37,821 nucleotides of DNA from Halorubrum yunnanense. Lineage in GTDB: Archaea; Halobacteriota; Halobacteria; Halobacteriales; Haloferacaceae. A program made the translations under genes and the position numbers. Position 1 is the stretch's first letter; every line of letters begins with the position of its first letter. This document shows positions 6,552-37,821 of the stretch, in pieces. The notes beneath the pieces are model-generated. The model worked only from the letters and a program-made list of their open reading frames with translations. It did not search any database and was not told where the DNA came from. The stretch is from positions 101,307 through 139,127 of the forward strand of contig NZ_JAODIX010000001.1 in the NCBI RefSeq assembly GCF_026586675.1, given 5' to 3'.

Positions 6552-6905
6552 GACGTGATATTTATAAAAGAACGAGGCGGTCGGCGCGCGCCTTCGAGCG
6601 GTCGCCCTCGGCGACCGCGAGGAGCGCGTGCGAGGGAGTCGCCGGCTCCCGAAGCGAAGCGGAGGGTGCCAGCGACGAGGCTGGGGAGGTGTGAGGTGCT
6701 GTGCGGTTGCGGTCGGGGTGGGACTCAAGGGGGCAGCCGGGAGGGCGAAGCCCGACGACGCAAGCACCACAGCGAAGAAGCGAGTGCAACGAGCGACTGA
6801 GCGAGGAGCGCAGCGAGTCGTGCGAGTCCTCCCGGCTGGGGCTTTGGAGGTGTTCACCGCAGAGTCAGCGATCACGTATAGCCGAGCAGCTGGGATTTTA
6901 GAAGC
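6552..6905 (-). repeat. Dispersed structured element, copy A
   Basis: This is the minus-strand copy of a repeat family seen three times here (copies B and C lie at 15911-16332 and 37693-37821). Read on the minus strand, a weak TATA-like ctatacg (6875-6881) is followed 21 bp later by GTG (6857) and the conserved CAAAGCCCCAGCCG. A hairpin with arms 6828-6838 and 6734-6744 (perfect 11 bp, cagccgggagg against its complement) encloses a degenerate serine/arginine-codon-like loop. Next comes a block of about 53 bp (6676-6728) almost identical to copy B, and an AT-rich end, atttataaa (6554-6562). A second degenerate copy of the promoter-proximal part lies 54 bp upstream of the first (cagctggga, ending near 6905). 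From the GTG the minus-strand frame is open through the whole element and begins VNTSKAPA. This copy fills the gene-less gap between the CPBP protease and tnpB. Confidence 0.75.
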
Positions 6906-6959: not shown

Positions 6960-7029
6960 TTGACATCCTCCCCGCGCTGAAGCGCGAGGATTCCCACGGC
7001 ACCGTACCGCTGGGTTGGGATATTGTGGT
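6960..7029 (-). ncRNA. Putative TnpB guide-RNA scaffold and IS right end
   Basis: Immediately downstream of tnpB on its strand is a G+C-rich hairpin (cctcgcgcttcagcgcgggg) followed by aggatgtcaa, ending near 6960. This position and fold match the right end of IS200/IS605-type elements, which in the TnpB systems known to be RNA-guided is the 3' part of the omega (re)RNA, with the guide read from the flanking host DNA. If so, the guide begins with acggtatgagagttcg on the minus strand, just beyond 6960. The exact boundary and transcription are inferred. A related hairpin lies at 8404-8445. Confidence 0.6.
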
Positions 7030-8310
7030 TTACGACGTGACCTGTTCTTGAGGTGCGAACGCACCAGTTTCTTTGTCAAACAAGAACGTCGATGGCTGTG
7101 CCAACCAGCCGTTACTCCTATCCACCGACAGATTCGGTGAACTCGGAGATACTTTCTGCCGAATGTTCTCAGCGCCGTTCACGTCCGCGTTCGCGACTGT
7201 CCCGCACTCGTCGCAGACATACAGTCCGCGTTCAACACGGTTCGCCTTTCGTTCCCGACCACAGCACGAACACGACTTCGAGGTGTCCCGCTCAGACACG
7301 TACTCGACCGTGATGCCTGCCATCTCGGCTTTGTATTCGAGGAGATCGGTGAAGCGGTCGAACGCCCACGAGTGCAGGTCAAGATTACCGTGTTTCCCCC
7401 AGTCTTTCGACTCACTGTTCTTCGCATCCTCACGGATGCCGGAGAGATCGCCCACCACGATAGTTCCAACACCTTCGTCAACACATCGCTGAACGATGTG
7501 TTTCGAGAGTGTGTGGAAGTAGTGCGTGCGGCGAGCCGACTTCTTGTGGTTCAACCGCGTGGCCTGCTCGGAGTTCGAGTCGTCACACCGAGCGATCCGC
7601 TTGCTGAAGTAGTAGTCGTCCTGTTTCAAGCAGTTGAGCGGGTACAACTCGCTGTGACCGTCTTCGTAGGCGAGCGCCGCAAAGTTGTTGATACCGAGAT
7701 CAACACCCACCGTCTTCTCACCGGGGGCGTCAGCCACGTCGATCTCGACCTTACAGACGAAGTGTAGTTCCCACTCGTCGCCCGTCCGTACAATCTTGAC
7801 TTGTTGGACGTTCTCCACGGCGGAGAGGTCAACGTTGGGGCGAGTTTGGTACTTGCACAGGACGAAATCCGACCAGTACTCCTTCAGGTTCGATCCTTTT
7901 GAGAGCCGAACTCGGTCGTACTGAGTGTCGAGTTTGAAGCCTTTCTGCTTGAATGTGACTGTGGAACGCGGGTGCTCGTCGCCGTGTTTGCGGTAGCCGG
8001 GCGGGTTCGCTTTCGCATCTCCGCTTTGCCGGTTGCCGTACCAGCCGTTGAACGCCTCAGCGAGTTCTTGAAGGACTCGCTGACTTGACTGCGAATGCAG
8101 GTCATCATAGCGTTCGTGGTTTTTGAGGTACGTGGTGAGTTCGTTGTGGTTGGGAATGTGACCGATTTCATCCCAGACCCGACTGCATGTCCACCGGCCG
8201 ACGTTCCAGAGTTTCGAGGCGGCGAACCCGAGCGAATCAAGGTCGTCTTGCACCCGAGACTGGTTCCGTATGGAAGCAGTGTAGGTGCGAGTAACGACCT
8301 GTTTCGCCAT
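7030..8310 (-). CDS. tnpB: TnpB, IS200/IS605 (IS1341-type) RNA-guided nuclease
   Basis: A 426-residue TnpB/OrfB. The N-terminal half is the helical and WED-like region. The RuvC-I acid is Asp204 in VGVDLGINNF. The zinc ribbon is CSCCG...CDECG (Cys347, Cys350, Cys366, Cys369). RuvC-III is ADVNGAENI with Asp376. The RuvC-II segment reads TIVVGDLSGIRED, where the usual ExL-type glutamate position holds Gly287; Glu294 is a possible substitute. The length is normal and the frame is intact. No tnpA lies beside it, so this is a solo tnpB, normally mobilised in trans if at all. Its codons and residues (more Lys, Asn and Ser, lower G+C) differ from neighbouring genes, which fits lateral arrival. A conserved hairpin end follows the stop codon. 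The left end is not sharply visible. Confidence 0.92.
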   Translation of the reverse strand: MAKQVVTRTYTASIRNQSRVQDDLDSLGFAASKLWNVGRWTCSRVWDEIGHIPNHNELTTYLKNHERYDDLHSQSSQRVLQELAEAFNGWYGNRQSGDAKANPPGYRKHGDEHPRSTVTFKQKGFKLDTQYDRVRLSKGSNLKEYWSDFVLCKYQTRPNVDLSAVENVQQVKIVRTGDEWELHFVCKVEIDVADAPGEKTVGVDLGINNFAALAYEDGHSELYPLNCLKQDDYYFSKRIARCDDSNSEQATRLNHKKSARRTHYFHTLSKHIVQRCVDEGVGTIVVGDLSGIREDAKNSESKDWGKHGNLDLHSWAFDRFTDLLEYKAEMAGITVEYVSERDTSKSCSCCGRERKANRVERGLYVCDECGTVANADVNGAENIRQKVSPSSPNLSVDRSNGWLAQPSTFLFDKETGAFAPQEQVTS

Positions 8311-8469: not shown

Positions 8470-8830
8470 GGCGGACTGAGGGGAGTAAGCCCCCTTCGGT
8501 TCGTCCCGACATTCGGCTGAGCGTCCGCGCCGTGGCCGGACTACCTTGTGGCGCGGACTTGCACCGGCGAGGATTCGCCGTTCCATCCGTTCCCGCCCGT
8601 CTGTAACGTGGCAAAGCCACGCCAACGTGGCAGAGCCACGCGCCCTCACCGGGTTAACTCCCTTCCCTTGCGGGTCGGTTCGCACGGATCATCGGTCGAG
8701 GCGGGGGGTGTCGTTGCTGTTCCAGAGCCAGCCGTCTCCGACTCCGGGCGTGTGCCCGGTCGCCCGTCCGGCCGGTGGGGGGACTTTCCTCATGCCAGAG
8801 GCACGGGAGTCGGGCTCCCTCTGTCCGAAC
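8470..8830 (-). ncRNA. rnpB: RNase P RNA (archaeal type A)
   Basis: This is the catalytic RNA that trims the 5' leader from tRNA precursors. Read on the minus strand, the universally conserved CR I element is ggcatgaggaaagtcc (8781-8796). Mid-molecule there is gaacggcgaatcctcgccgg followed by tgcaagtcc, the P11-P12 neighbourhood. The conserved 3' region is cgaaccgaagggggcttac (about 8485-8503). The ends were set by P1 pairing of cggac (8823-8827) with gtccg (8472-8476). A length near 360 nt is normal. Two tandem small hairpins of the form gtggc-t-gccac occupy 8603-8644, probably an extended P12-like arm. A TATA-like cttatt at 8851-8856 lies about 26 nt before the proposed start. The exact ends are estimates. 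Confidence 0.92.
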
Positions 8831-8890
8831 CGTCGTTGTCCGCGGCCGCGAATAAGCGATCCGGTCGGGGATCGTGACTCTCGGTGCCTC

Positions 8891-8968
8891 CGACTCCCGC
8901 CGATTTCGACTCCCGCCGGTTTCGACTCCCGCCGGTTTCGACTCCCGCCGACTTCGACTCCCGTCGAC
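8891..8968. repeat. 16-bp tandem repeat upstream of rnpB
   Basis: Five consecutive copies of cgactcccgccgNttt (starting at 8891, 8907, 8923, 8939 and 8955), with the last one diverged. The array ends about 35 bp upstream of the putative rnpB TATA box and about 110 bp before the divergent AMMECR1 gene. No convincing protein is encoded here. It may be a regulatory array or simple slippage DNA. Confidence 0.7.
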
Positions 8969-9080
8969 CACGCCCCCCGATCCGGCGGACGCATCGAGGA
9001 GACTCGGACGCTGCGAGGGACCGAAATGCCATCGCTTCACAAGGGAAGCGTTCAAGTCGTCAGCAACGTAATAGACTATC

Positions 9081-15910: not shown

Positions 15911-16094
15911 AAAGCCCCAGCCGCTCAGTTATAAATAGTTGACCGGGGATCGACGGTGAACTCCACCAAAGCCCCAGCCGCTCAGTTATAAATAGTTGAC
16001 CGGGGATCGACGGTGAACTCCACCAAAGCCCCAGCCGCTCAGTTATAAATAGTTGACCGGGGATCGACGGTGAACTCCACCAAAGCCCCAGCCG
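15911..16094. repeat. 57-bp tandem repeat, promoter-like, three copies plus part
   Basis: Three identical 57-bp units begin at 15911, 15968 and 16025 with aaagccccagccgctcag, and a partial fourth begins at 16082. Each contains ttataaata, and about 25 bp further on ggtgaactcc. The repeats therefore triplicate the head of the dispersed element: a TATA-like box plus the following start. There are no unique spacers, so this is not CRISPR. Each upstream GTG would read VNSTKAPAAQL and stop; only the last leads into the long frame. Confidence 0.9.
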
Positions 16095-16332
16095 CGTGGA
16101 GGGCGCACGCTCGCTGCGCTCCTCAGTCGTTCGCTCTGCTCACTCCTTGCGGTGCTTGCGTCGCCTACGCCCTCCACGCGGCTGCCCCTTTGAGTCCCAC
16201 CCCGACCGCAACCGCACAGCACCTCTCACCTCCCCAGCCTCGCCGCTCGCTCCGCTCGCGGCGTCCCTCGCGCGTGCACCTCGCGCCCTTCGGGCGCTCG
16301 CAGGCACGCGCCGACCGCAGTCCAATTTATAA
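15911..16332 (+). repeat. Dispersed structured element, copy B
   Basis: The most complete copy of the family. After the tandem head, the last TATA-like box (16043-16051) is followed at 16070 by GTG and the conserved caaagccccagccg. A perfect 17-bp hairpin has arms 16089-16105 and 16168-16184 around a 62-nt loop. The block from about 16190 to 16243 (tttgagtcccaccccgaccg onward) is nearly identical to copy A. It ends with atttataa (16325-16332), like copy A. A frame from GTG 16070 to 16336 is open for 88 codons (VNSTKAPA... to SPIYK). I cannot tell whether it is translated, so I list it as a repeat. It fills the gap between the small membrane protein and hisD. Confidence 0.78.
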
Positions 16333-36256: not shown

Positions 36257-36751
36257 CTACTCTCGGGTGCCGTCCTCGGCGCCGCCGCCCTCCTCGGCGC
36301 TCTCGCTTTCGTCGCCGTCGGTGTCGGCATCGGTGGCATCGCCGTCGCCGGTGTCGACATCCACGCCGTCGCCGTTTTCGTCTCGCTCGACCACGCCGTC
36401 GCCGTTTTCGTCTCGCTCGACCACGCCGTCGCCGTTTTCGTCTCGCTCGACCACGCCGTCGCCGTTTTCGTCTCGCTCGACCCCGCCGTCGCCGTTTTCG
36501 TCTCGCTCGACCCCGCCGTCGCCGGCCTCGGTGCGGCGCGCGTAGAGCGCGACGGCGACGGCGGTGACGAACCAGATCGGCGCGCCGACGCGGACCGCGA
36601 AGGCCGCGCGGGCCCCCCACGAGTCGAGGGTGACGAACGCGGAGAGGACCGCGACGACCGGGGCGCCGACGAGGATCGTGAGCACGAACGTCGTCTGCAT
36701 CACCCAGCCGTAGTCGATCCCCTCGAACTCGGCCCGCTCGACAGGTTGCAC
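36257..36751 (-). CDS. Membrane protein with acidic repeat tail (DUF5822-like)
   Basis: About 164 residues. The conserved part is the first 80: EGIDYGWVMQTTFVLTILVGAPVVAVLSAFVTLDSWGARAAFAVRVGAPIWFVTAVAVALYARR, two membrane helices joined by a short loop. I recall this as DUF5822, of unknown function. Then comes a strictly repeated ten-residue unit, GVVERDENGD, five times (DNA 36361-36510), and a Glu/Asp/Thr-rich end, which would hang in the aqueous phase. I prefer the GTG at 36751, because the usual family start is just before DYGW and gattt lies about 28 bp upstream; a TTG at 36778 is an alternative. It converges on the HAD gene with no spacer. Confidence 0.68.
   Translation of the reverse strand: MQPVERAEFEGIDYGWVMQTTFVLTILVGAPVVAVLSAFVTLDSWGARAAFAVRVGAPIWFVTAVAVALYARRTEAGDGGVERDENGDGGVERDENGDGVVERDENGDGVVERDENGDGVVERDENGDGVDVDTGDGDATDADTDGDESESAEEGGGAEDGTRE
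36361..36510. repeat. Five 30-bp in-frame repeats
   Basis: Five near-identical units of 30 bp start at 36361, 36391, 36421, 36451 and 36481, encoding the acidic decapeptide GVVERDENGD (first unit GGVERDENGD) in the minus-strand membrane protein. The near identity suggests recent expansion by slippage or unequal recombination. Confidence 0.9.
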
Positions 36752-37692: not shown

Positions 37693-37821
37693 ATATTTAC
37701 GAGCGAACGGCGGCGCTGCGGTGAACTCCTCCAAAGCCCCAGTCGAGAGGGCGGCGCACGCTCGTTGCGCTCCTCAGTCGCTCGTTTCACTCGCTCCCTC
37801 CGGTGCTTACGTCGCCTGCGC
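37693..37821 (+). repeat. Dispersed structured element, copy C (cut by window end)
   Basis: TATA-like atatttac (37693-37700) is followed 25 bp later by GTG (37721) and the conserved gtgaactcctccaaagcccc. The hairpin arm here is cagtcgagagggcg, different from copies A and B; its partner should lie just past the window end. The frame from the GTG is open to the end (VNSSKAP...). Only the first 129 bp are present, 6 bp after the panB stop codon. Confidence 0.75.

Follow-up and report, generated by a model that had tools for sequence, protein, structure and literature searches.

Three copies of a repeat element in the window

The window analysed here is a stretch of 37,821 nt of the Halorubrum yunnanense contig NZ_JAODIX010000001.1. 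A sequence-only reading had placed three copies of one dispersed element in it, and reading and repeat search confirmed all three with their shared blocks, at 6552–6905 (copy A), 15911–16332 (copy B) and 37693–37821 (copy C). A and B form an inverted repeat (80 nt, 91%), B and C a direct repeat (103 nt, 83%). The order described for them, a TATA box followed by a GTG, CAAAGCCCCAGCCG, a hairpin and the GAGTCCCACCCCGACCGCAA block, also held, a distance of 27 nt separating the GTG from the initial T of the TATA-like box. The proposed hairpin is real, but its extent had been drawn too short. On the complementary strand the stem goes further (CAAAG-GGG-CAGCCG... pairing with ...CGGCTG-GGG-CTTTG) and is extended by a rod of G.A-rich internal loops. 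We call this longer core hairpin hp1.

Copy A lies on the plus strand. Its 5′ domain (TATA-like box, hp3, hp2 and linker; assigned from sequence and alignment) occupies 6552–6712 and is followed by hp1 at 6713–6847 (covariance model R1, 108.3 bits, E 6.4e-18; predicted fold energy −61.8 kcal/mol) and, at 6848–6905, by the 3′ end with one degenerate tandem unit, read from the sequence. Copy B has the minus strand as its sense strand. Here hp1, the class-wide motif, spans 16080–16205 (106.7 bits, E 1.3e-17; −71.2 kcal/mol), and the 5′ domain at 16206–16325 contains the linker, the GAGGCTGGGGAGG block, hp2 and hp3; with the TATA-like box TTTATAA at its end (16326–16332, not assigned to a strand) this second folded domain reaches 16332. 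On the other side of hp1, at about 15911–16079 (minus strand), are three tandem 57-bp units, each made of a 3′-arm repeat and a spacer with a TATA-like box (direct repeat D6, spacing 57). Every unit has its own TTATAAAT box and GTG, the boxes lying on the plus strand at 15929–15936 (unit 1), 15986–15993 and 16043–16050. Copy C is represented by a core hairpin at 37731–37821 (minus strand; R1, 58.1 bits, E 2.9e-8) whose 5′ end is missing, cut by the window end. In the contig, 11 N and a C-run follow just beyond this point, at the partner arm, so that copy C is incomplete in this assembly.

Several other features lie in the window. A gene at 7030–8253 (minus strand) resembles an IS1341-type tnpB. 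Its 3′ end coincides in part with a match to the Rfam sot0042 RNA (168 bits; 6969–7154, minus strand), and copy A lies about 60 bp past this match. Rfam also identified an archaeal RNase P RNA at 8474–8825 (minus strand; 176.5 bits), just past which a 16-bp tandem repeat of the GACTCCCGCCGGTTTC type occupies about 8860–8971. At 36361–36524, perfect or near-perfect 30-bp tandem repeats lie within a predicted minus-strand gene.

The core hairpin folds on one strand

The hairpin hp1 consists of a base GAAAG/CTTTC, a GGG/GGG loop, a variable stem P1 and an apical rod with conserved G.A, A.A and bulged-C loops (alignment of 67 sequences). In Halorubrum the foot reads CAAAG/CTTTG, in which one base pair is swapped relative to the other genera (C-G for G-C). 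In an unsupervised covariation analysis the twelve best column pairs were all predicted base pairs, with scores of 98–49 against a shuffled maximum near 22. For the named structure, 92.9% of the pair cells were paired (71.6% when shuffled) and 447 were doubly changed (147 when shuffled). The covariation score was 0.522, compared with 0.160 for the shuffled alignment and 0.05–0.11 after sliding of the partner. The median fold z-scores against shuffles were −6.0 for hp1, −4.3 for hp2 and −4.5 for hp3 (73 copies). The earlier suggestion that selection acts on the fold is thus strongly supported, both by covariation and by compensatory changes within orthologous copies (see below).

Wobble pairs in the basal part of P1 were GT in 41 cases and AC in 8. 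One core pair occurred as C-G (98), T.G (38), T-A (19) and C.A (0), so that the exchange of C-G for T-A passes via T.G and never via C.A. The bias recurred in hp3 (GT 22, AC 6), and tandem GA/GA loops were frequent in hp3 and hp2. The excess of GT over AC indicates that the folding strand is the one reading GGGTGGGACTSAAAGGGGC, which is the plus strand in copy A and the minus strand in copies B and C. By these same counts, the strand on which promoter and frame had been set for copy B is the opposite of the folding strand. G.T pairing is tolerated in DNA too, and the wobble bias therefore cannot separate RNA from single-stranded DNA.

The Halorubrum form and the small-protein reading

Copies in Halorubrum have the extra second folded domain and tandem 51–57-bp units with TATA-like boxes. 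Alignment of 31 copies from the own genome gave the order hp3, hp2, block GAGGCTGGGGAGG, variable linker, GGGACTCAAAGGGGCAG, hp1, CTGGGGCTTTGGAGG. The unit period was 57, 54 and 51 bp in 45, 8 and 6 loci, respectively, a pattern suggestive of three length classes and not of coding. Of 82 Halorubrum copies, 29 had a TATA-like box 14–17 nt upstream of GGTGGCGCG, and 35 of 92 had one at exactly +30 past the 3′ arm, the background rate of such boxes being 0.00024 per base. These TATA-like boxes belong to the element. Given the usual archaeal distance from TATA box to start, the 5′ box would start transcription within hp3.

The GTG had also been read as the possible start of a leaderless gene for a small protein. 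The position of the GTG, 27 nt past the start of the TATA-like box, and unit lengths that are mostly multiples of three speak for such a gene. However, the GTG is not conserved, other copies having GGAGAAC, GGCGAAC or TGCGAAC at this place; each of the six frames of the units is interrupted by stops in some copies; and a codon-phase signal was looked for in the units and none was found. The copies had been thought to stay in register through length differences of multiples of three, but this applies to most unit lengths and not to the lengths of hp1 and of the linker, and the length of the hairpin varies freely. With no conserved start, open frame or codon phase, we rejected a protein-coding gene and regard the leaderless variant as extremely improbable.

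The element is a large family found across most of the Halobacteria

The three copies belong to a large family. The own genome has about 160–190 copies, a number extrapolated from about 0.8 Mb of its sequence and from candidate counts. In a BLAST search of this genome with copy B, 40 of the 187 candidates were scored and yielded 76 places, and the scans of about 0.8 Mb gave roughly one copy per 18–20 kb, or about 160 per genome if the density is even. The family was present in all 22 Halorubrum relatives examined, with 81–273 candidates each.

Distant matches revealed hp1 as the ancient core of the element. Matches listed in a pattern scan of named genomes for hp1 include Natrinema, Haloarcula, Haladaptatus, Haloglomus, Halosimplex, Natronococcus, Haloparvum, Halonotius, Halobium, Halapricum, Halorarius, Halolamina, Halorientalis and Halobaculum. 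A covariance model of the hp1 core, built from 67 sequences, matched 125 of the 145 Halobacteria genomes sampled, from 50 of 58 genera. In a sample of the phylum, it matched none of the 124 genomes outside the Halobacteria. Copy number was very uneven and 20 of the 145 Halobacteria genomes had no match; any host function must therefore be dispensable. Assembly gaps or contig ends in or near hairpins were seen just after window position 37821 (G000:C1), at L011 and at the ends of contigs C23, C39, C44, C46 and C62, and draft genomes thus probably under-count the element.

No Rfam family matched the element at gathering or permissive thresholds. Searches of the open literature by sequence strings and by topic gave no description; one may be included among a published 224 candidate RNAs. 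In the main text of a REP survey (PMC12306157), the string 'halo' is absent.

Copies lie between genes and mostly on chromosomes

According to a simple gene finder based on codon usage, none of 64 Halorubrum copies and none of 131 class-wide copies was inside a called gene. The Halorubrum copies were in 25 convergent and 7 divergent gaps and, in co-directional ones, 15 times sense and 17 times antisense, compared with a background of 206 convergent, 251 divergent and 670 co-directional gaps. They prefer convergent gene pairs, without strand preference. Of the 131 class-wide copies, 79 shared their strand with the downstream gene. Outside Halorubrum, 55 of 143 copies had a head-to-head partner within 60 nt; the spacer in these pairs was 27–39 nt and often dyad-symmetric, e.g. 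GGTTGGCCAACC.

In a complete relative there were 14 copies in 400 kb of chromosome versus one weak match in the 364-kb second replicon (megaplasmid). PLSDB gave six weak matches. Phage and viral collections gave none, and we rejected an origin from phages or viruses. Hit lists along complete chromosomes, as read, showed both strands mixed.

Two kinds of flanking repeats were observed in other lineages. At seven loci of uncultured Halobacteriales (L134, L147, L152, L164, L165, L169 and L181) an inverted motif, GTGTTCAGATA / TATCTGAACAC, is located about 45 nt out on each side of the core, like transposon ends. In Halobacteriales QS_1_68_20 (L140, L143, L150, L170 and L174) repeated units built on GGTGGCCGGCAC precede the core; this array differs from the Halorubrum units and sits on the opposite side of the core.

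Site, orientation and pairing are kept while the sequence changes

The site of copy B, upstream of hisD, carries the element in seven Halorubrum genomes and lacks it in many relatives. At further sites the element was present in 27 of 34 orthologous comparisons, and orientation at orthologous sites was the same in 42 of 42. Five relatives were empty at site L103:2341 (55–58 nt, versus 623 nt when occupied). No target duplication was visible at this single empty site, the boundaries of which are not exact.

The identity of hp1 was 75.4% between orthologous sites, 75.9% between copies of the same genome and 73.5–74.4% between copies of different genomes. The intergenic flanks at orthologous sites were 66–67% identical, compared with 61% for unrelated flanks. 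As the flanks also evolve fast, turnover of hp1 above the neutral rate is suggested by these values but not proven. Where basal pairs had changed at orthologous sites, 80 of 112 stayed paired, and 30 of 32 copies kept a fold z-score below −3. Near-identical copies within a genome, as a sign of recent spread, were not seen. Recent homogenising by ectopic gene conversion is not supported, since copies of the same genome are barely more alike than those of different genomes and none is near-identical.

Partner enzymes and known repeat systems

Reverse transcriptase (PF00078) was absent in 39 of 39 Halorubrum genomes, and we rejected a reverse-transcriptase route, or a SINE-like retroelement, because the hosts do without this enzyme. 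The Y1 transposase (PF01797) was not found in four near-complete, copy-rich Halorubrum genomes (G015, G018, G043 and G062). A Y1 (IS200-type) transposase as an obligatory partner was rejected on this ground.

Like REP/BIME sequences, the element is extragenic, dispersed and palindromic, folds in a strand-specific manner and is enriched between convergent genes (here in Halorubrum). It also shares with BIMEs the inverted pairs seen in 55 of 143 copies outside Halorubrum, in place of which Halorubrum has the 5′ domain. In contrast, REPs are bacterial and 20–40 nt long, whereas the present element is archaeal and about 110–300 nt long with an elaborate conserved core; RAYT-associated REPs have the TnpA-REP (Y1) transposase as partner, and here none is needed; and the Halorubrum form differs by its tandem TATA-bearing units. 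Like MITEs, the element is short, non-coding, dispersed and intergenic. MITEs, however, make a target duplication, and none was seen at the single clean empty site (within its inexact boundaries). For terminal inverted repeats, another feature of MITEs, the picture was mixed: no uniform ones were seen, some genomes having TGTTCAGATA-type flanks or GAACAGC..AAAGCCCC ends and Halorubrum neither. With Rfam RNA families the element shares a covariation-supported fold on one strand, but it matches none of them.

The closest description found in the literature is that of the PATEs/SMRs (PMC3119063). These repeats of Haloquadratum and Halorubrum are non-coding and palindromic, with heterogeneous sequences and no target duplication; different repeats have been reported at identical positions between strains, and PATEs are described as having ends like those of IS605-type transposons, one being located in a virus and a plasmid (PMC3119063, PMC10544981). 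The present element is likewise non-coding, palindromic and heterogeneous, and its only clean empty site showed no target duplication. Unlike PATEs, it is absent from the phage and viral collections and rare on plasmids. As the element lacks tested features that define RAYT-linked REPs, MITEs and retroelements, it can be said to work like such repeats but not to be a member of them.

Possible roles of the element

The copies might be a multi-copy family of trans-acting structured non-coding RNAs, each transcribed independently from its own promoter. The folding strand set by the wobble bias, the conserved internal loops (alignment of 67 sequences), the TATA-like boxes that Halorubrum copies carry at fixed positions and the lack of a fixed relation to the strands of neighbouring genes fit this idea. 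However, transcription from the 5′ box would begin inside hp3, comparable boxes were not seen in the class-wide copies read, and 100–200 divergent copies would be unusual for a trans RNA; we consider the idea rather unlikely. A cis-acting RNA element in untranslated regions (a terminator, 3′-end protector or leader element) would account for the enrichment between convergent genes in Halorubrum and for the same-strand downstream gene in 79 of 131 class-wide copies. Against it stand the almost equal sense and antisense numbers in Halorubrum (15:17) and the presence of the same fold in convergent, divergent and co-directional gaps, and we consider it improbable.

Alternatively, the strong depletion on the secondary replicon, the preference for convergent genes and the head-to-head pairs with dyad spacers could reflect a site acting at the DNA level, i.e. 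a hairpin or cruciform that proteins of chromosome maintenance (replication, repair or supercoiling) bind or process, by analogy with the gyrase and polymerase sites in BIMEs. A double-stranded site would not need strand-specific folding, though, and both orientations are mixed along complete chromosomes, as the hit lists show; such a site seems unlikely. Template-switch correction of quasi-palindromes is able to produce paired changes without selection, and functionless old palindromic insertions could have been kept palindromic in this way. But this process would not be expected to yield an excess of GT over AC on one strand, and it should erase the G.A, A.A and GGG/GGG internal loops, which are conserved class-wide. 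We regard this explanation as highly improbable.

The family, its fold and folding strand, its class-wide range, its intergenic and chromosomal location, the stability of site and orientation, and the maintenance of pairing while the sequence turns over are established. The reading that we favour, to which we give about an even chance, is that of a family of non-coding repeats, dispersed between the genes of Halobacteria and mostly on their chromosomes, which would work like REP/BIME or PATEs, the folded strand being recognised and the fold being kept for the host. One particular strand, once single, would fold into the conserved hairpin and might then be recognised by a protein, as RNA in the case of transcription or as DNA in the course of replication or repair. 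Rare gains would occur via some enzyme, and old copies would be retained for the benefit that the fold brings to the host chromosome or its transcripts; the element would thus be rarely gained and then kept. More tentatively, and with the balance somewhat against it, the element could be a new class of structured elements present in most Halobacteria with up to about 200 copies per genome, in which selection keeps the fold in place while the sequence turns over. It would then act throughout the chromosome as an RNA or folded-DNA system that has a recognition protein of its own, and would resemble no described repeat.

In either case, a covariation-supported structure with a hundred or more copies per genome in some genera extends across most of an archaeal class and is absent from Rfam. 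Its orthologous sites, at which place, orientation and pairing persist although the sequence does not, offer a natural experiment on structure-only selection or copy-to-copy replacement. If functional, the element would add to haloarchaeal biology a layer that spans the chromosome; if mobile, it would move without needing a reverse transcriptase or a Y1 transposase.

Some copies contain smaller palindromes or foreign-looking hairpins. At loci L003, L014, L017 and L021 and in the orthologous copies L276 and L303, smaller palindromic inserts are nested in the hairpins of the element (e.g. CAGCCGGCGGCTTCGCCGCCGGC beside GAGAGCGAAGCTCTCGC), as though the loops were targets of another mobile palindrome. 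In L063 and L064, which are orthologous to copy B and belong to G007 and G002, the linker contains a hairpin of foreign appearance, GAAGACGTTCCTGCTCGCTTCGCTGCGCGGGCTGCGACTT.., and in L064 this hairpin takes the place of the whole core hairpin.
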